DNA of 64,000 nt from Cellulomonas sp. 73-92 (GTDB lineage Bacteria > Actinomycetota > Actinomycetes > Actinomycetales > Cellulomonadaceae), in contig NZ_MKTH01000002.1 of NCBI RefSeq assembly GCF_001898175.1, positions 62,001-126,000 on the forward strand. Direction: 5' to 3'. The notes under the pieces are model-generated. The model saw nothing but the letters and a program-made list of their open reading frames with translations, was not told the origin of the DNA and did not search any database. Every line of letters starts with the position of its first letter. The first letter of the stretch is position 1. Below are positions 14,516-51,127 of this stretch, piece by piece. The position numbers and the translations under genes are program-made.

Positions 14516-15643
14516 TCACCGCGAGGCGCGGACCCACCCCGGCGGGACGCCGTACGAGAGCGACTGCGCGAGCAGGAGCGCCAGGCGGTAGCCGTCGTCG
14601 TCCGCCAGGGCCCGTTCGAGGAAGATCCGTGCCCGGGCCCCGTCGCCCCGCCACCAGGCGAGCAGGCCGAGCAGGGTGAGGGCGGGCGCCTGGTGGCCGC
14701 GCTCGCCGTGGGCGACGACCGCGACCAGCACGGCTTCGTGGACGCGGGTGGCGGCCGGCGGGGCGGGCACGCCGTCCAGCGGGTCGACGATCAGCGCCAG
14801 CGCCCGGCCCAGCGCGGCGTCGTCCTCGCGGCTCGGCCGGTCGCCGCGGGTGCACCGTTCGGGGAGGTCGCCCTGGCCGGGCACGAGGGCGACGAGGACG
14901 GCGTCACGCACCCGGACGTCGGCCAACCCCGCCTCGAGCCGCCCGAGCGAGGCGGCGGTCGGCCCGCCCGCGCGCTCCAGCTGCTCGTCGACCGCCCGGC
15001 GCCACGCCGCCACGCCGTCGGCCCGCCAACGCTCGACGGCGGCCGCACCGTCGTCGTGCGCGAGCCGTCCACGGACCTGCCACCGCCGGCGCACCCGCGC
15101 GACCGACCGCCGGGACTCGCTGCCGGCGGAACGGATCCGACCCACGTCCTCGCGGCAGCTCGCGACCGACGAGCCGGCCAGCACCATCTGCGCGCTGACC
15201 TGGGTCGACGACAGGTCGGCCAGCGGGCGTCCGCCGGGCGGGCAGCACGTGTCGTCGCAGTCGAGCGACAGGTAGCCCGTCGACGTCACCGCCCAGGCCG
15301 GCACCTCGCCGTACGGCGCCTCGGCGGCCTCCCGGAAGTGCGCGACGGCGGCCGCGACCACGGGGTCCGGTCCCCGACGCGGGTCGTCCCGCGTGTAGAC
15401 GACGAGCACCGCCCGGTCCGCACCGTCACCGTCCAGGTGCGCGACGACCTCCCGTGCGAGCTGCGGCCCGTCCTCGGGGCTCGCCAGGTCGGGGAGGTCG
15501 ACGCGGACGGCCAGGCCCACCCTTCCCCGCGGCGGACGCAGGCTCACCGCCACCACCGACTCCGACGGGTGGAACCCGAGCTGGTACGGGATGAGCGAGA
15601 GCATCTCGCGAGGCTCGGTGACGCGGAGGGTCGGGGTGTCCAT
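14516..15643 (-). CDS. DUF4192 domain protein
   Basis: A 375-residue soluble protein of the actinobacterial DUF4192 family, function unknown. The N-terminal signature is LRVTEPREMLSLIPYQLGF (residues 6-24) with PSESVVAVSLRPPRGRVG, and the family's CC pair is visible in CDDTCCPPGGRPLADL. The C-terminal third holds helical repeats typical of the family (ALTLLGLLAWWRGDGARARI, 20 residues, then ALADDDGYRLALLLAQSL). Length is normal. The gene lies in the rpoD/parE neighbourhood, as in other actinobacteria. The start has a modest GAGG 7 nt upstream. Confidence 0.85.
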   Translation of the reverse strand: MDTPTLRVTEPREMLSLIPYQLGFHPSESVVAVSLRPPRGRVGLAVRVDLPDLASPEDGPQLAREVVAHLDGDGADRAVLVVYTRDDPRRGPDPVVAAAVAHFREAAEAPYGEVPAWAVTSTGYLSLDCDDTCCPPGGRPLADLSSTQVSAQMVLAGSSVASCREDVGRIRSAGSESRRSVARVRRRWQVRGRLAHDDGAAAVERWRADGVAAWRRAVDEQLERAGGPTAASLGRLEAGLADVRVRDAVLVALVPGQGDLPERCTRGDRPSREDDAALGRALALIVDPLDGVPAPPAATRVHEAVLVAVVAHGERGHQAPALTLLGLLAWWRGDGARARIFLERALADDDGYRLALLLAQSLSYGVPPGWVRASR

Positions 15644-43629: not shown

Positions 43630-44028
43630 TCAGTGGGCGTGCTGGCCGCTGCTGTACTCGAGCACCCAGCCGACGAGCCCGACGACGCCGAACGGCAGCG
43701 CGATGGCGAGCATCCACCAGCCCACGGCGAGCGCCGCGAACCCGAGTGCCGCACCCACGGCCAGCACGAGCGGCCACCAGCTCCACGGGGCGAACACGCC
43801 CTGGTCGCCCGCGCCCTGCGCGATCTCGGCGTGCTCGTCGTCCTCCGGCCGTCGGTCGATGCGGCGGGCGAGCAGCCCGAAGTACCCGCCGATCATCCCG
43901 ACGAGCCCGCCGACGAGCGGCAGGCCGGCCGAACCGACGGGCTCGCCGTGGCTGAAGGCCGCGTAGATCAGCCCGACCGGGACGAAGAACAGCACACCGG
44001 CCAGGAACAGCTTCGCCTCGAACCTCAT
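43630..44028 (-). CDS. ctaF: Cytochrome aa3 oxidase subunit IV
   Basis: A 132-residue actinobacterial-type oxidase subunit IV with four hydrophobic segments in two pairs (about 6-26, 34-52, 79-98 and 101-122). The family features are [15 protein letters not shown] at the N-terminus and the FAPWSWWPL motif before the third helix. It stabilises CtaD/CtaC in the membrane. ATG 44028 overlaps the ctaD stop by 4 nt. It is last in ctaC-ctaD-ctaF. Confidence 0.92.
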
Positions 44029-45719
44029 CGGGAGCCCCCGCTCGCGCCGACCATCGGCTCGGGTTCGACGTGGTCGAGCGCCGCGACCTCCGGGTGGTGC
44101 AGGTCGAACGCCGGGCGCTCGGAGCGGATGCGCGGCAGCGACGTGAAGTTGTGCCGCGGCGGCGGGCAGCTCGTCGCCCACTCCAGCGAGTTGCCGTAGC
44201 CCCACGGGTCGTCGCGCGTCACCATCGGGGCGCTGCGCCACGTCCGGTAGACGTTGTAGAAGAACGGCAGCATCGAGATCGCCAGGATCCCCGAGCCGAT
44301 GGTCGACAGCTGGTTCATCCACGTGAAGCCGTCGGCGGGCGAGTAGTCGAAGTAGCGCCGGGCCATGCCGCGCACGCCGAGCCAGTGCTGGACGAGGAAC
44401 GTCGTGTGGAACCCGATGAACAGCAGCCAGAAGTGGACCTTGCCGAGCCGCTCGTCCAGCATCCGTCCCGTGAACTTGGGCCACCAGAAGTAGAAGCCGG
44501 CGAACATCGCGAACACGACCGTGCCGAACACCACGTAGTGGAAGTGCGCGACGACGAAGTACGTGTCGGTCAGCTGGAAGTCCAGCGCCGGGCTGGCCAG
44601 GATCACGCCGGTGAGGCCGCCGAACAGGAACGTCACCATGAACCCGAGGGTCCACAGCATCGGCGTGTCGAAGGTCAGCTTGCCCCGCCACATCGTGCCG
44701 ATCCAGTTGAAGAACTTCACGCCGGTCGGCACCGCGATGAGCATCGTCATGAACGAGAAGAAGGGCAGCAGCACCGCGCCGGTGGCGTACATGTGGTGCG
44801 CCCACACGGTCACCGACAGGGCGGCGATCGCGATGGTCGCGTACACCAGGCCCTTGTAGCCGAACACCGGCTTGCGGCTGAACACCGGGATGATCTCGGT
44901 CACGATGCCGAAGAACGGCAACGCGATGATGTAGACCTCCGGGTGCCCGAAGAACCAGAACAGGTGCTGCCAGAGCACCGCGCCGCCGTTGTCGGGGTTG
45001 AACACCTGGGCGCCCAGGCGCCGGTCCGCGCCGAGCGCGAACAGCGCCGACGCCAGCGGCGGGAAGGCCATCAGCACCAGCAGCGACGTGATGAGGATGT
45101 TCCAGGTGAAGATGGGCATCCGGAACATCGTCATGCCGGGCGCGCGCATCGTGACGATCGTCGTGATGAAGTTGACCGCGCCGAGGATGGTGCCGAACCC
45201 ACCCAGCGCCAGCCCGAACACCCACAGGTCGCCGCCCAAGCCGGGCGTGTAGACGGTGTCGTTGAGCGGCGCGTACGCGGTCCAGCCGAACGACGCCGCG
45301 CCCTGCGGCGTCAGGAAGCCGGCGGCGGCGATGATCCCGCCGAACAGGTAGAACCAGTAGGCCAGCATGTTGAGCCGCGGGAACGCGACGTCGGGCGCGC
45401 CGATCTGCAGCGGCATGATGACGTTGGCGAACCCGGCGAACAGGGGCGTCGCGAAGAGCAGCAGCATGATCGTGCCGTGCATCGTGAACGCCTGGTTGTA
45501 CTGCTCGCTGTTCTGGAACACCTGGAGCCCCGGTGAGAACAGCTCCGCGCGGATGAGCAGCGCGAGGATCCCGCCCAGGATGAACCACACGAACGCCGTG
45601 ATGAGGTACAGGTAGCCGACCGTCTTGTGGTCGGTCGTCGTGATCCACTTGACGATCGTCCGGCCCATGGTCTGCTGGCGCGGGGCCAGCCCGGGGATCA
45701 CCTCGACGTGCGTCGCCAT
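44025..45719 (-). CDS. ctaD: Cytochrome aa3 oxidase subunit I
   Basis: The 564-residue catalytic haem-copper subunit that reduces oxygen to water and pumps protons. It has the family's twelve-helix pattern with [20 protein letters not shown] (20 residues; low-spin haem a His), [20 protein letters not shown] (20 residues; CuB His and cross-linked Tyr), AHHMY and the late [12 protein letters not shown] (haem a3 and a His pair). The K-channel and D-channel regions appear normal. It is 1 bp downstream of ctaC and overlaps ctaF by 4 nt. A ribosome site GGAGG precedes the ATG. Confidence 0.95.
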
Positions 45720-45720
45720 G

Positions 45721-46599
45721 TCAGCCCTGGCCTCCGATGGTCGTCACGCTCTGCTTGCGGCTGTAGTCCAGGCCGAGCTGGCCGGTCTGGCCCGCGGCGC
45801 GCAGGGCGGCGATGTGGGCGTCGTAGTCGGCCTTCGACACGACCTGGACGTTGAAGAGCATCTTCGCGTGGTAGTCGCCGCAGAGCTCCGCGCACTTGCC
45901 GCGGTAGGTGCCGATCGCGGTCGGGGTCACCTCGAAGGTGTTGGTGCGCCCCGGGATCGCGTCCATCTTGAAGAGGAACGCCGGCACCCAGAACGAGTGG
46001 GCCACGTCGCGGGAGTTGATGGTGAACATCACGCGCTCGTTCACCGGCAGGTAGAGCGTGACGACGCCGTTGTCCAGCCCCCCGGGCTGGCTGACGTCGG
46101 CCGCCTGGACCCCGGCGTCGTAGACGCCGTCGTCCAGGTAGTTGATGTCCCACGACCACTGCTTGCCGATCACCTGGACGTGCAGGTCCGCCGGCTTGTC
46201 GGTGGCGAGGATCGCCGTGGTGTCCCGGTTCGTGAAGAAGAACATCACGCCGATCATGACGATCGGCAGCACCACGTACATCACCTCGAGGGGCACGTGG
46301 TAGCGCAGCTGGACCGGCAGGGTGTCGTCGTCGTCCTTGCGCTTGCGGTAGGCGGCGACGCACCACAGGATCAGGCCCCACACCAGGACCCCGACGAGCA
46401 GGGCGGCGATCCAGGAGCCGCGCCAGAGGGTGCTGATGCGACCGGTCTGGTCGGTCACCTCGTGCGTCGAGCTCCCCGGCAGGAAGCCGCGCCACAGGAG
46501 GTCCGAGCAGCCGGACAGGAGGACGGTGGCCGCGACGAGCAGTCCCGCGCCGGCGACGGCGCGGCGACGACGTGAGCGGCGTCGGTGGTCCGGGTGCAC
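45721..46599 (-). CDS. ctaC: Cytochrome aa3 oxidase subunit II (CuA lipoprotein)
   Basis: A 292-residue subunit accepting electrons from QcrC through the dinuclear CuA centre. The signal segment ends in lipobox LSGC, so the N-terminus is lipidated. Two membrane helices (about 55-78 and 97-118) follow. The CuA domain holds an upstream His in [11 protein letters not shown] and [12 protein letters not shown] (Cys236, Cys240, His244, Met247). The GTG at 46599 has AAGG 7 nt upstream; the longer ORF to 46743 crosses the promoter region and is not credible. A DosR-type box is centred 56 bp upstream. It is first gene of ctaC-ctaD-ctaF. Confidence 0.93.
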
Positions 46600-46648
46600 G
46601 GCCTGCCTTCCACTACGGCCCGAGGGGCGGCGACGAAGCCTGAGGCCT

Positions 46649-46662
46649 GGGACTTTAGTCCC
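46649..46662. promoter_or_regulatory. DosR/DevR-type box upstream of ctaC
   Basis: GGGACTTTAGTCCC is a perfect match to the 14-bp core (GGGACTWWAGTCCC) of the hypoxia/NO-responsive DosR (DevR) box; the outer three bases on each side match poorly. It lies 50-63 bp before the ctaC start. A minus-strand TACGCT at 46673-46678 is a possible -10, which would put the box at about +4 to +17 (repressing); a promoter nearer the gene would instead allow activation. Confidence 0.65.
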
Positions 46663-46762
46663 CGGCTGGCCCAGCGTAGCGCGGACGTCCGAGCCTGCAC
46701 CGGGTGTTCTCGCATGTCGTGACGCGGCGTCCCGAACCGTCATGACGTGCTCCGTCGCGGGT

Positions 46763-46774: not shown

Positions 46775-47923
46775 GTGACGGTCGACCGCGTGGTGCTCGA
46801 CGCCGGGGGCCAGGCCCCCCTGCTGCCCGTGGCGCGCGACGCGTTCCTCGCCGCGCTCGACGAGGGCTGGGCCGACCCCCGCCGGCTCCACTCCGAAGGG
46901 CGCCGCGCCCGCGCCCTGCTCGACGGCGCCCGGGAGGCGCTGGCCGCGGCCGTCGGGGCGCGCACCGAGGAGGTCGACCTCGCGCCGTCCCACACGGCGG
47001 CCCTCCACACGGCCGTCTCCACCGTGGCGCTGGGGCGCCGGCGGGTCGGCGCGGACGTCGTCGTCTCCGCCGTGGAGCGCGCGGCCGTGCTACACGCCGC
47101 CGACTTCACGGCCGCGCGCGGCGACGGCCGCCGCGTCACCGTCCCCGTGGCGCGCACCGGCCAGGTGGACGACGAGGCCTTCGTCGCCGCGCTGGCACGT
47201 CCGGGCGTGGCGCTGGCCGCGCTCCAGCACGCCAACGGCGAGGTCGGCACGCTCCAGCCCGTCGCGGCGGTCCACGAGGCGGCCCGCGCCGCCGGGGTGC
47301 CGCTGCTCGTCGATGCCGGCGCCAGCCTCGGGCACGTGCCGGTGGGCGACGCGTGGGACCTGCTCGCCGCCAACCCGGGCGACTGGGGCGGGCCGTCGGG
47401 GCTCGGCGTGCTCGTCGTCCGCGCCGGGGTGCGGCGCTCCCCCGACCGGCCGTCCGACGAGGACCGCTGGTTCCCGGGGGGCGTCAGCGTGCCGGCGGCG
47501 CTCGCCGCCGCGGTGGCGCTCGAGTCGGCTCTCGCCGGTCAGGCCGCGGCCGACGAGGAGCGGCGCGCGCTCGTCGCGCGGTTGCGCGACCGCATCCCGG
47601 CGGAGATCGAGGACGTCGACGTCGCCGGGCCCGCCGAGGGGCGGCTGCCGCACGTGCTGACGTTCTCCTGCCTCTTCGTCGACGGCGAGGCGGTCGTCGG
47701 CGCGCTCGACGCCGCCGGGTTCGCGGTCGGCAGCGGTTCCGCGTGCACGTCGAGCACGCTCGAGCCGAGCCACGTGCTGGCGGCGATGGGCGTGCTCACG
47801 CACGGCAACGTGCGGATCGCCCTGCCGCGCGGCACGCGGGCCGCCGACGTCGAGCGCTTCGCCGACGTGCTGCCGGGCATCGTCCGGTCCATCCGGGCCC
47901 GGCTCGGGGTGGTCGACCTGTGA
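46775..47923 (+). CDS. Cysteine-desulfurase-like fold-type I protein lacking the PLP lysine
   Basis: A 382-residue NifS/IscS-family protein. Family features are present: His152 in QHANGEVGTLQP (IscS His104 region), Asp180 in LVDAGASLG and a sulfur-loop cysteine in SGSACTSSTLEPSHVL (Cys324). The PLP Schiff-base lysine, expected in an S-x-H-K-x-x-G-P-K-G motif, is replaced: the motif reads NPGDWGGPSG with Asp203 at the lysine position. The nearby Gln is Ala183. The whole protein contains no lysine at all. It therefore cannot form a normal internal aldimine. Its stop overlaps the TusA-like gene by 4 nt, and ErpA and NadA are neighbours, which suggests a sulfur-transfer or Fe-S scaffold role; this is inference. 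Confidence 0.85.
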   Translation: MTVDRVVLDAGGQAPLLPVARDAFLAALDEGWADPRRLHSEGRRARALLDGAREALAAAVGARTEEVDLAPSHTAALHTAVSTVALGRRRVGADVVVSAVERAAVLHAADFTAARGDGRRVTVPVARTGQVDDEAFVAALARPGVALAALQHANGEVGTLQPVAAVHEAARAAGVPLLVDAGASLGHVPVGDAWDLLAANPGDWGGPSGLGVLVVRAGVRRSPDRPSDEDRWFPGGVSVPAALAAAVALESALAGQAAADEERRALVARLRDRIPAEIEDVDVAGPAEGRLPHVLTFSCLFVDGEAVVGALDAAGFAVGSGSACTSSTLEPSHVLAAMGVLTHGNVRIALPRGTRAADVERFADVLPGIVRSIRARLGVVDL

Positions 47924-48195
47924 CCGGCGAGGTGACCCCCGGCGGTGCGGGTGTGCCGGACGAGGTGGTCGTGGACGCGCGGGGGATGCTGTGCCCCGCA
48001 CCCGTCATCGCGCTCGCCAAGGCGGCGCGGTCGCTGCCCGAGGGCGCACGCGTCACCGTGCTGGCCACCGACCCCGCCGCGGCCGTCGACGTCCCCGCCT
48101 GGGCACGCATGCGCGGGCATCGGGTGCTGGAGACGACGGAGGACGGCGAGCACCTGGTGCTCACCGTCCTCCTCGGACCGGCGAAGGCCCGCTGA
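47920..48195 (+). CDS. TusA-family sulfur-carrier protein
   Basis: A 91-residue protein with the TusA/SirA/YedF fold. It contains the defining CPxP motif GMLCPAPVIALAKA, with the persulfide-carrying Cys25, then the beta-strand VTVLATDPAAAVDVPAWARM (20 residues) and a C-terminal strand HLVLTVLLG. A short Gly/Pro-rich N-terminus precedes the domain. GTG 47920 overlaps the stop of the desulfurase-like gene by 4 nt (GTGA), so the two are coupled; in some actinobacteria the two are described as one fused protein. It probably accepts or relays sulfur. A small hairpin covers its stop codon. Confidence 0.88.
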   Translation: MTGEVTPGGAGVPDEVVVDARGMLCPAPVIALAKAARSLPEGARVTVLATDPAAAVDVPAWARMRGHRVLETTEDGEHLVLTVLLGPAKAR

Positions 48196-48208: not shown

Positions 48209-48559
48209 TCAGGCGAACGAGCCGCCGCACGCGCAGGAGCTCTGCGCGTTCGGGTTGTCGATCGTGAAGCCCTGCTTCTCGATCGTGTCCGCGAAGTCGA
48301 TCGTCGCGCCCTCGAGGTAGGGCACGCTCATGCGGTCGACGACGACCTCGACGCCGCCGAAGTCGCGCACCGCGTCGCCCTCGAGCATGCGCTCGTCGAA
48401 GTACAGCTGGTAGATCAGGCCGGAGCAGCCACCCGGCTGCACGGCGACGCGCAGCCGGAGGTCGTCGCGACCCTCCTGCTCGAGCAGGCTGCGGACCTTG
48501 GCCGCGGCCACGTCCGTGAGCTCCACGCCATGGGTGGCGGTCTGGATCGTCTCGCTCAT
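48209..48559 (-). CDS. erpA: A-type iron-sulfur carrier protein
   Basis: A 116-residue A-type carrier (ErpA/IscA/HesB family) that delivers [2Fe-2S] or [4Fe-4S] clusters to apo-enzymes. The three conserved cysteines are Cys45 (GGCSGL) and Cys109/Cys111 (SSCACGGSF). The fold signature YQLYFDE...VVVDRMSVPYLEGATIDF... is intact. The ATG has AGGAG 6 nt upstream. The neighbours are a TusA-like/desulfurase-like pair and the [4Fe-4S] enzyme NadA, consistent with local cluster supply. Confidence 0.92.
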   Translation of the reverse strand: MSETIQTATHGVELTDVAAAKVRSLLEQEGRDDLRLRVAVQPGGCSGLIYQLYFDERMLEGDAVRDFGGVEVVVDRMSVPYLEGATIDFADTIEKQGFTIDNPNAQSSCACGGSFA

Positions 48560-48660: not shown

Positions 48661-49878
48661 TCAGCGCGGCCTGGGCGACCAGGTGCGCGCCACCGCCGCG
48701 GTGCGAGCGGTGAGGGTGCCGGCGGGGTCGGCGAGCGCGGCCGCCACCTGCGCGCGCGTCTCCGAGACGGCGTAGGCCGCGCTGATCCCCTCGGCCGCCT
48801 GCTCCCGCCGGCCGACGAGCACCTCGCCGGCGACGACGATCGTCGGCAGGCCGTGCGCCAGCGCGCGGTGCGCCACCTCCGCCACGACCTTGCCGTGCAG
48901 CGACTGCCAGTCGAACCGCCCCTCGCCCGTGACGACGAGGTCGGCGCCGGCCAGCCGCGCGTCCAGCCCCACGGCGTCGGCCACCACGGCCGCCCCGGGC
49001 ACGAGCCGCGCGCCGAGCAGCGCCAGCCCGAAGCCGAGCCCCCCGGCCGCGCCCGCCCCCGGCAGCGCGGCCAGCCGGTCGGCACCGGAGCGGGCCGAGG
49101 CCGTCGGGACCGCGCCGTGGTGATGACCGAACGCCACCGGCTCGGCCAGCAGGTTCGGGCGCTCGACCTCGCCGAGCGCGGCCCCGGCGACCCGCGCGAA
49201 CCGGGCCAGCGCCCGCTCCAGGTGCTGCGCCTGCTCCGGCGTCGCGCCCTTCTGCGGCGAGAAGCCCGCGGCGGCGCCCTGCAGCCCGAGCAGCGGCACG
49301 TCGACGTCGCAGGCGACGAGGACCTCCACGCCCGACCAGTCGGCCCGCAGCGCCGGCAGGCCGGCGAGGTCGTCGTCCGCCAGCTCGTCGAGCCCGCCAC
49401 CGCCCCCGGCGAGGCGGCCGCCAGCGCCGGCCAGCCCGAGCCCGGCCAGCATCCCGGCGCCGCCGTCGACGGTCCCCGAGCCACCGAGGCCGACGACGAT
49501 GCGGCGCGCCCCGGTCTCGCGCGCGTGCCGCAGCAGCTCCCCGAGGCCCACCGACGTGGTGCGCGTCGGGTCCCGCCGGTCGTCCGGCACGAGCGCGAGG
49601 CCGACCGCCTGGGCCGACTCGACGTAGGCCGTGTCGCCGGCGAGCAGCACGGCCGCGTCCACGTCCTCGCCCCACGGCCCGCGGACGACGAACGGCAGCA
49701 GCCGGCCGCCGATGCTCGCCCGCAGGGTGTCCACGAAGCCCGGGCCACCGTCCGCCAGGGGGGCGACGACGATCTCGTCGTGCCGTGCTCCGGCGCGCCA
49801 GCCGGCCGCCATGGCGGCGGCCGCCGCCTGCGGCGAGAGCAGCCCACCGAAGCCGTCCGGAGCCAGCAGCACGCGCAT
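48661..49878 (-). CDS. Glycerate kinase (GarK/GlxK type I)
   Basis: A 405-residue kinase phosphorylating glycerate, expected in glyoxylate or sugar-acid catabolism. The N-terminal MRVLLAPDGFGGLLSP matches the family's APDSFKGSLS-type start with small changes. The core VVGLGGSGTVDGGAGMLAGL (20 residues), followed by TGEGRFDWQSLHGK near 310, is diagnostic. ATG 49878 was chosen because the family N-terminus begins there; upstream ORF extension is Arg/Ser-rich and overlaps nadA. Divergent from nadA with 43 bp between starts, so the promoters overlap. Confidence 0.9.
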   Translation of the reverse strand: MRVLLAPDGFGGLLSPQAAAAAMAAGWRAGARHDEIVVAPLADGGPGFVDTLRASIGGRLLPFVVRGPWGEDVDAAVLLAGDTAYVESAQAVGLALVPDDRRDPTRTTSVGLGELLRHARETGARRIVVGLGGSGTVDGGAGMLAGLGLAGAGGRLAGGGGGLDELADDDLAGLPALRADWSGVEVLVACDVDVPLLGLQGAAAGFSPQKGATPEQAQHLERALARFARVAGAALGEVERPNLLAEPVAFGHHHGAVPTASARSGADRLAALPGAGAAGGLGFGLALLGARLVPGAAVVADAVGLDARLAGADLVVTGEGRFDWQSLHGKVVAEVAHRALAHGLPTIVVAGEVLVGRREQAAEGISAAYAVSETRAQVAAALADPAGTLTARTAAVARTWSPRPR

Positions 49879-49921
49879 GGCCCCAGATCGTCGCACGGCG
49901 GGCCTGTGCGAGGATCGGCGT

Positions 49922-51127
49922 GTGACTCTCGCGACACCCGAGCGGTCGGTCTTCGTCGAGCCCGCCTCGTCGGCGTTGCTCCTGCTGGGACGCGGTGTGG
50001 ACCTCGCCTCCGAACGGGGCGTCGAGTGCGCCGGCACGCTGCCGCCCGCGAGCGACCCCGACCTCGTCGAACGTGCCCGCGCGGCGCGCGACGCCCTCGG
50101 CGACCGCGCCTTCGTCCTGGGCCACCACTACCAGCGCGACGAGGTCATCGCGTTCGCTGACGTCACGGGCGACTCCTTCCGGCTGGCGCAGCAGGCCGCG
50201 GCGCGGCCCGAGGCGGAGTTCATCGTCTTCTGCGGCGTGCACTTCATGGCCGAGTCGGCCGACATCCTCACCGCAGCCCACCAGCAGGTGGTGCTGCCGG
50301 ACCTGGCCGCGGGCTGCTCCATGGCGGACATGGCGGCGATCGACCAGGTCGAGGACGCCTGGGACGTGCTGACCGACGCCGGCGTCGCCGACGACACGGT
50401 CCCCGTGACGTACATGAACTCCACGGCGGCCATCAAGGCGTTCACGGGCCGCCACGGCGGCACGGTGTGCACGTCGTCGAACGCCCAGGTCGCCCTGCGG
50501 TGGGCCTTCGAGCAGACCGGCGGGGTCGACGGCCGTGGGAAGGTCCTGTTCCTGCCCGACCAGCACCTGGGGCGCAACACGGCGGTGCTCCAGCTCGGGA
50601 TGGGGCTGACCGACTGCGTGGTCTACGACCCCCACAAGCCGAACGGCGGCCTCACCGCGCAGCAGCTGCGCGACGCCCGGATGATCCTGTGGCGCGGCCA
50701 CTGCTCCGTGCACGGGCGCTTCTCGGCGCGCAACGTCGCGGACATCCGTGCCGCCGACCCGGGCGTGCGGGTGATCGTCCACCCCGAGTGCACGCACGAG
50801 GTCGTCACCGCGGCCGACGAGGTGGGGTCGACCGAGAAGATCATCAAGGCCCTCGACGCTGCGCCGGCGGGCACCCACTGGGCGATCGGCACCGAGCTCA
50901 ACCTGGTGCGTCGGCTGGCGCAGACCCACCCCGACCAGGCGATCCACTACCTCGACTCGACCGTGTGCTTCTGCTCGACGATGAACCGGATCGACCTGCC
51001 CCACCTCACGTGGGCGCTGGAGTCGCTCGCGGCCGGCCGCGTGGTCAACCGCATCGTCGTCGACGCCGACGACGCCCACTGGGCGCGCGTCGCGCTGGAC
51101 CAGATGCTGGCGCTGCCGGGCTACTGA
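49922..51127 (+). CDS. nadA: Quinolinate synthase
   Basis: A 401-residue [4Fe-4S] enzyme that condenses iminoaspartate with dihydroxyacetone phosphate to quinolinate in NAD synthesis. The three cluster cysteines are in AGCSMADM, HPECTHEV and VCFCSTMNRI; LGHHYQRDEV and DVTGDSFRLAQQA are typical of the long NadA class. nadB and nadC, usually adjacent, are absent here. GTG 49922 has a weak -10 (GAGGAT) 6 nt before it and no Shine-Dalgarno. It is 1 bp upstream of the DJ-1 gene, so they are cotranscribed. Confidence 0.93.
   Translation: MTLATPERSVFVEPASSALLLLGRGVDLASERGVECAGTLPPASDPDLVERARAARDALGDRAFVLGHHYQRDEVIAFADVTGDSFRLAQQAAARPEAEFIVFCGVHFMAESADILTAAHQQVVLPDLAAGCSMADMAAIDQVEDAWDVLTDAGVADDTVPVTYMNSTAAIKAFTGRHGGTVCTSSNAQVALRWAFEQTGGVDGRGKVLFLPDQHLGRNTAVLQLGMGLTDCVVYDPHKPNGGLTAQQLRDARMILWRGHCSVHGRFSARNVADIRAADPGVRVIVHPECTHEVVTAADEVGSTEKIIKALDAAPAGTHWAIGTELNLVRRLAQTHPDQAIHYLDSTVCFCSTMNRIDLPHLTWALESLAAGRVVNRIVVDADDAHWARVALDQMLALPGY

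Follow-up and report, generated by a model that had tools for sequence, protein, structure and literature searches.

A lysine-free cysteine desulfurase homologue in Cellulomonas: cofactor residues lost, substrate clamp and sulfur-loop cysteine kept

We examined a 64,000-nt stretch of the Cellulomonas sp. 73-92 genome (contig NZ_MKTH01000002.1, positions 62,001–126,000; hereafter the window, in which all positions below are numbered) that carries dsf, a GTG-started gene on the + strand (46775..47923) for a 382-amino-acid (aa) cysteine desulfurase homologue. The protein has two cysteines and no lysine, and aspartate (Asp203) stands where the lysine binding pyridoxal 5'-phosphate (PLP) is expected. 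Its residues indicate that dsf is very probably no classical desulfurase, and sequence and locus order identify it as the orthologue of a lysine-bearing desulfurase paired with the sulfur carrier TusA in Streptomyces and other genera. The reading we prefer, at slightly less than an even chance, is that the product is a PLP-free pseudo-desulfurase that would carry sulfur on Cys324 and pass it to TusA or to another acceptor.

Active-site residues lost and kept

A preliminary description, made from the letters of the window, had assigned the product to the IscS/NifS fold. This assignment was borne out by Pfam (Aminotran_5, PF00266, 2.9e-27, a class V aminotransferase fold), by an AlphaFold2 model that we used for the fold only (predicted local distance difference test score 92, predicted template modelling score 0.92), and by Foldseek, which placed the model closest to Mycobacterium tuberculosis IscS (4isy) and then to Archaeoglobus fulgidus IscS (4hvk, 4eb5, 4r5f). 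Of the 18 NCBIfam models that dsf matched, none reached its cut-off; the best was NifS, with 199.2 bits against 530.75.

Roles were assigned to single residues from the cysteine desulfurase SspA. In its structure paper (PMC7188994), His99 stacks on PLP, Asp175 holds N1, Gln178 holds the hydroxyl, Ser71, Ser198 and His200 hold the phosphate, Lys201 forms the Schiff base, and Asn150 and Arg340 hold the substrate carboxylate. Mapped onto the dsf family by motif and spacing rather than by alignment, these residues fall at positions 102 (His99), 180 (Asp175), 183 (Gln178), 200, 202 and 203 (Ser198, His200 and Lys201), 154 (Asn150) and 347 (Arg340), with SspA Cys314 at 324; the placement of Ser71, at about position 74, is less sure.

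In the window, most of the cofactor side is replaced. The stacking His is Arg102 (CGC, 47078..47080), the Gln is Ala183 (GCC, 47321..47323), and Asn-Pro-Gly-Asp at codons 200–203 (47372..47383) replaces the Ser-x-His-Lys that supplies phosphate ligands and the Schiff-base lysine, codon 203 being GAC (47381-47383). The counterpart of the N1 ligand, Asp180 (47312..47314), is kept, as are the persulfide cysteine of the mobile loop, Cys324 (TGC, 47744..47746), and both counterparts of the carboxylate clamp, Asn154 (47234..47236) and Arg347 (CGG, 47813..47815). The preliminary description had read the changes at 203 and 183, the complete lack of lysine and the presence of Cys324, His152 and Asp180 correctly. 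It took His152 as the retained histidine; the residue is indeed His, but the PLP-stacking one belongs at position 102. Classical PLP desulfuration, which it ruled out barring unusual chemistry, is indeed very unlikely: besides the Lys and the Gln, the His that stacks on PLP and two ligands of the phosphate have disappeared.

We asked how general this pattern is using 253 orthologue rows, each a distinct locus spanning more than 300 residues with a full residue key; lysine-bearing rows below 45% identity were treated as outgroups and not counted, and a contig-edge fragment (L066), a split hit (L251) and identical proteins were dropped. Residue 203 was Lys in 138 rows, Asp in 86, Ser in 17, Ala in six, Thr in three, Gly in two and Glu in one. 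Cys324 and Asp180 were present in 253/253. Among the 115 rows without Lys203 (Lys-less rows), Asn154, Asp180, His293, Cys324 and Arg347 were each found in 115/115; Gln183 and His202 were in none, Ser200 was in three (replaced by Asp in 97), His102 was in 21 and Thr74 was in 69. The 138 lysine-bearing rows had His102 in all 138, Ser200 in 137, His202 in 133 and Gln183 in 109, so the Gln was sometimes lost while the Lys stayed. Arg102 accompanied Asp203 in 86/86 Asp-type rows, a correlation that is confounded by shared descent.

A protein search returned 7798 relatives at E < 1e-10 among 8000 candidates, of which the best 120 were readable. Together with the window protein, these had Asp203, Cys324, His152 and Asp180 in 121/121 and either Ala (100/121) or Ser (21/121) at position 183; 116/121 contained no lysine and five contained one. 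A sequencing error or frameshift at codon 203 is excluded, since Asp203 recurs in all 121 sequences and GAC lies at least two changes away from any Lys codon. The database names of these homologues, where given, were of the types 'cysteine desulfurase' or 'aminotransferase class V-fold PLP-dependent enzyme'. Because Lys-less proteins bear the name cysteine desulfurase, the annotation of sulfur metabolism in these actinobacteria is probably wrong in part.

The lack of lysine is partly a composition effect, as judged from the neighbouring genes. At 23 of the same loci, the aligned stretches of glycerate kinase had a mean of 0.39% Lys and six were lysine-free, as were 17/23 aligned stretches of tusA. 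Even so, across 30 Asp-type loci, the dsf products held two lysines in total versus ~240 expected from their neighbours, and no neighbour of 300 aa or more was lysine-free (0/161, with a crude gene caller). Selection against lysine as such is possible. The lysine-bearing orthologues are also lysine-poor, 36/138 having a single Lys in the aligned stretch, and in eight loci from other families of the phylum (L025, L026, L028, L029, L031, L033, L034 and L040) the sole Lys of the aligned stretch is the PLP lysine. Since distant lysine-bearing homologues already carry a single Lys, the scarcity of lysine seems to predate the disappearance of the PLP lysine. The window holds a second lysine-free open reading frame (14516-15643, − strand, 375 aa), unconnected with dsf, which a simple filter accepts as coding.

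Loss of the lysine at a conserved locus

Downstream of dsf, on the same strand, lies a gene for a 91-aa TusA-like sulfur carrier (47920..48195, GTG start; PF01206, 3e-20) whose CPAP motif supplies the CPxP cysteine of a TusA domain (Cys25, 47992-47994). It is followed by erpA, an A-type Fe-S carrier gene (48209..48559, − strand; PF01521, the name being our own assignment), a glycerate kinase gene (48661..50037, − strand) and nadA for quinolinate synthase (49922..51127, + strand, start uncertain). On the other side, ctaC (cytochrome c oxidase subunit II; 45721..46743, − strand) diverges from dsf and is followed outward by ctaD (subunit I; 44025..45719, − strand). The preliminary description had placed both erpA and nadA beside the gene; nadA is near but not adjacent, with erpA and the glycerate kinase gene in between.

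The order ctaD<, ctaC<, dsf>, tusA>, erpA<, nadA> is common to the lysine-bearing Streptomyces loci, where tusA is fused in frame to the desulfurase, and to the Lys-less Cellulomonas loci. Wherever a locus was long enough to be compared there were few exceptions, such as L286, in which erpA and nadA are inverted. The shared order in lysine-bearing and Lys-less genomes indicates that the lysine was lost in place and not through a foreign gene.

We surveyed the order of the window (Actinomycetales) at E 1e-50, a threshold that more divergent copies would escape, and obtained 62 matches in 61 of 248 sampled genomes. All 62 were read and Lys203 was found in none (0/62), ruling out a recent, isolated loss. 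At the class level, 171/344 genomes matched at E 1e-55, of which 100 were read. The six of these 100 that belong to the window's order were all Lys-less; outside it, 92/94 had the Lys, the two Lys-less copies being L200 and L202. A scan of named genomes, covering the best 80 of at least 536 relatives, found the Asp type in Cellulomonas, Cellulosimicrobium, Isoptericola, Promicromonospora, Krasilnikoviella, Sediminihabitans, Flavimobilis and Paraoerskovia, Ala at position 203 in Actinotalea, Ser in Pedococcus, and Lys in Streptomyces, Kitasatospora, Nonomuraea, Actinomadura and other genera. Two contigs of metagenome-assembled genomes titled Proteobacteria and Acidobacteria (L232, L269) carry actinobacterial-type copies with the same synteny and are probably mislabelled or mixed bins.

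In a quick tree of 121 rows, built with columns 199–206, 183 and 152 left out, the Lys-less rows of the order formed one group of 55 (SH-aLRT, the Shimodaira–Hasegawa-like approximate likelihood ratio test, 95). The tree needed four changes between Lys and no Lys, three of them forced by starred branches; the placement of the long rows L127, L128, L205 and L202 is unsure. We read the four changes as the window's order, L202, A. fulgidus IscS2 and L200. The last of these sits at an unresolved fork beside the window's order, and its loss may be shared with the order and not independent. FastTree on 260 rows without the archaeal row needed three changes, two forced. These trees suggest a single loss in the window's order, with the PLP site taken apart at its root, and one or two further losses of the lysine elsewhere in the class. 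Within the order, residue 203 is Asp, Ser, Ala, Thr, Gly or Glu.

The gene is intact, as the preliminary description had it, and the family is under purifying selection. The median ratio of nonsynonymous to synonymous substitution rates (dN/dS) was 0.232 among the Lys-less rows that have tusA (271 pairs), 0.199 among those that lack it (50 pairs) and 0.195 among lysine-bearing rows (1777 pairs; Nei-Gojobori, pairs 75–99.5% identical with dS <1.5, which share lineages and so are not independent). A median of about 0.2 largely rules out a pseudogene. Only one of the 62 order matches has an in-frame stop: L127 (G480:C1:533572-534681), the only Lys-to-Glu member read, with one in-frame TAG and a very long branch, looks from its sequence as if it is decaying.

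The preliminary description had also proposed a coupling to TusA. The 4-nt GTGA overlap between the dsf stop and the tusA start is as it described, but strict dependence on an adjacent tusA is ruled out across the family. A profile made from the TusA hits at these loci detects a downstream tusA in 135 of the 136 readable lysine-bearing rows (two more reach a contig edge) and in 80 of the 115 Lys-less rows, leaving 35 without one. Its presence changed eight times among Lys-less rows versus once among lysine-bearing rows (FastTree), over similar branch lengths (30.3 and 26.3). The CPxP motif is retained in 79 of the 80 TusAs adjacent to Lys-less copies, and Cys324 is retained in all 35 Lys-less rows without tusA. 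As tusA goes missing while dsf and its Cys324 stay, the adjacent TusA appears to have become dispensable after the loss of the lysine. At each of the seven named loci in which no tusA was found, the marker gene that follows is erpA. Of the genomes with a tusA-less copy, 33 were searched throughout; they had a strong TusA domain elsewhere in 10 cases (E <1e-15), a weak one only in 18 (11 above the Pfam cut-off) and none at E 0.001 in five; a divergent TusA elsewhere in tusA-less genomes is possible.

Some copies differ in their sulfur loop. In one family (f70; L102, L104, L107, L108, L110-L112, L115, L116, L118 and L119), from genomes of 2.3–2.9 Mb, the Lys-less copies are without tusA and have an altered sulfur loop (e.g., GSACGKAAFEP) that retains the Cys. 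One genome (G397) has two Lys-less copies (L125 and L128), one without tusA and the other with an unusual loop (GCGCTCGRHP) and, next to it, a TusA-like protein without CPxP.

Possible functions of the Lys-less protein

The sequence-level basis for the pseudo-desulfurase reading is the loss of the PLP residues together with retention of Cys324, Asn154, Asp180 and Arg347, orthology and purifying selection. Under this reading, dsf would no longer take sulfur out of cysteine. The Asn154/Arg347 clamp would bind a small thiol with a carboxylate group, cysteine persulfide or cysteine being the likeliest, or else sulfur would be taken from another desulfurase; the sulfur would then be held as a persulfide on Cys324 and passed on, to TusA in genomes that have kept it and to another acceptor in those that have lost it. 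In Asp-type proteins, an Arg102–Asp203 pair may close the space that PLP once occupied. A relay of this kind, in which Cys324 would be loaded from a clamp-held donor or from another desulfurase, fits the residues that were kept. A broader claim, that this is a cofactor-free sulfurtransferase with an erased PLP site and a kept clamp and Cys324, which relays sulfane sulfur from free cysteine persulfide or another desulfurase to TusA or a different acceptor and arose independently and by the opposite route to an archaeal family described below, is doubtful.

Several observations weigh against the pseudo-desulfurase reading. The absence of tusA from 35/115 Lys-less rows that keep Cys324 means that transfer to TusA is at most part of the function. 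The relatives of A. fulgidus IscS2 (AfIscS2), which have no Arg at 347, retain Asn154 in 118/119, so its role may be structural. Asp180, known as the residue that holds PLP, never varies, and Thr74, probably a ligand of the phosphate, persists in 69/115; a PLP-like ligand may therefore still bind. The loss of Gln183 alone marks nothing, as the residue is already gone in 29/138 lysine-bearing rows. Finally, neither a persulfide donor nor an alternative acceptor was identified.

An unlikely alternative is that dsf acts as AfIscS2 does, docking on an Fe-S scaffold or carrier (ErpA being a neighbour) and lending Cys324 as a cluster ligand. AfIscS2 shows the same Lys-to-Asp and Gln-to-Ala changes and is reported to have no desulfurase activity, its Lys being Asp, and to lend a Cys as ligand to the [2Fe-2S] cluster that IscU carries (PMC7585200); the position of erpA in the seven named tusA-less loci points the same way. 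However, the tree gives AfIscS2 an origin of its own, the neighbours that were scanned included no recognisable IscU-like gene, and the retention pattern is reversed: His102, Ser200 and Arg347 occur in 119, 119 and 0 of 119 AfIscS2 relatives versus 21, 3 and 115 of the 115 Lys-less actinobacterial rows.

A similarly low probability attaches to a non-catalytic partner or regulator that pairs with IscS or SufS, or guards TusA, and so sets how sulfur is split among acceptors. Possible partners exist. The preliminary description had suggested looking for a complete SufS elsewhere, and the window's genome encodes one above the NCBIfam cut-off (528.5 vs 475.1), adjoining an Fe-S assembly gene of PF01883, as well as a lysine-bearing IscS-like gene, next to what looks by eye like mnmA, and a third lysine-bearing desulfurase near an ArsR-rhodanese gene. 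IscS is dimeric, and in the Escherichia coli complex TusA meets the loop Cys of the other subunit (PMC2854127). A pure scaffold, however, gives no clear reason for keeping Arg347 and Cys324 in 115/115. The same genome has two further TusA domains. One belongs to an 842-aa fusion of pyridine nucleotide-disulfide reductase, rhodanese, TusA and DsrE_2 (L304:1707-4235, G000:C13); a TusA-like gene (L303:2625-4024, G000:C24) lies beside a gene that is DsrE-like by eye.

It is quite improbable that dsf is a cryptic enzyme using PLP or pyridoxamine phosphate (PMP) without a Schiff-base lysine. Lys-less PLP/PMP enzymes with His at the Lys position exist (ColD, E1), and Asp180 in 115/115 and Thr74 in 69/115 Lys-less rows are in keeping with a bound cofactor, but the stacking His, the Gln and the phosphate Ser and His are mostly or wholly lost, Ser200 having become Asp in 97/115, and residue 203 is not constant (D, S, A, T, G or E). 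The idea that dsf is decaying and being lost, suggested by the lost catalytic residues and tusA and by a match in only 61/248 order genomes (at a threshold that would miss divergent copies), is largely refuted by a dN/dS near 0.2 in all three groups, a stop in one match of 62 and Cys324 in 253/253, and has only a very slight chance of being right.

In this bacterial group, dsf probably does a job other than releasing sulfur. The fixed locus provides a natural graded series from lysine-bearing to Lys-less forms, with lysine-bearing orthologues in easily grown Streptomyces, and makes testable a question that the archaeal case left open: what use a desulfurase has after losing its cofactor.

Comparison with known desulfurases and their Lys-less relatives

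The preliminary description saw here its best candidate for an undescribed system, but the Lys-to-Asp change itself is not new: AfIscS2 and Methanosarcina acetivorans IscS1 are already published (PMC7585200). What is new here is an actinobacterial family that keeps the clamp and loses the cofactor side. This family appeared in no title or abstract listed by searches of the open-access literature, a coverage that leaves out most subscription papers.

The lysine-bearing actinobacterial pair (Streptomyces, Kitasatospora, Nonomuraea, Actinomadura and others) is the orthologue of dsf, with the same locus order and tusA downstream or fused. It is ~46–59% identical to dsf and, unlike dsf, has Lys203 and His102 in 138/138 rows and Gln183 in 109/138. 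M. tuberculosis IscS (4isy) and the E. coli IscS–TusA complex (3lvj) share the fold (template modelling scores of 0.86–0.91); in the latter, where PLP sits on Lys206, the loop Cys hands sulfur to TusA (PMC2854127). M. acetivorans IscS1 resembles dsf in lacking the essential Lys (PMC7585200) and differs in being encoded with an IscU.

AfIscS2 (PDB 4eb5, 4eb7 and 4hvk; D199K mutant 4r5f) resembles dsf in its substitutions, sharing Asp at 203, Ala at 183, the loop Cys and the IscS fold. For comparison we took the best 120 of 7970 hits to it, those with a named source being archaeal. Asp203 was present in 119, and the lysine-bearing exception (P0122) is taken to be the D199K construct. In the 119 Asp-type proteins His102 and Ser200 are universal, Asn154 is present in 118, His202 has become Asn, and position 347 is Leu in 92 and Val in 27; they carry 12 to 34 lysines each. 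AfIscS2 itself works with IscU, keeps His102 and Ser200 and is without Arg347, whereas the actinobacterial family stands beside TusA, has lost Ser200 and mostly His102, keeps Arg347 and is nearly lysine-free. On the quick tree the actinobacterial rows belong to a group of 116 rows that does not include AfIscS2, in agreement with a separate origin, and synteny and tree together rule out horizontal gain of an AfIscS2-type gene. By their residues, the two families are near mirror images, the archaeal one having lost the substrate Arg and the actinobacterial one most of the cofactor side. The mirrored retention argues against a simple transfer of the archaeal mechanism, and the contrast between two independent families, one with the clamp kept and one with it lost, points to the residues worth mutating.

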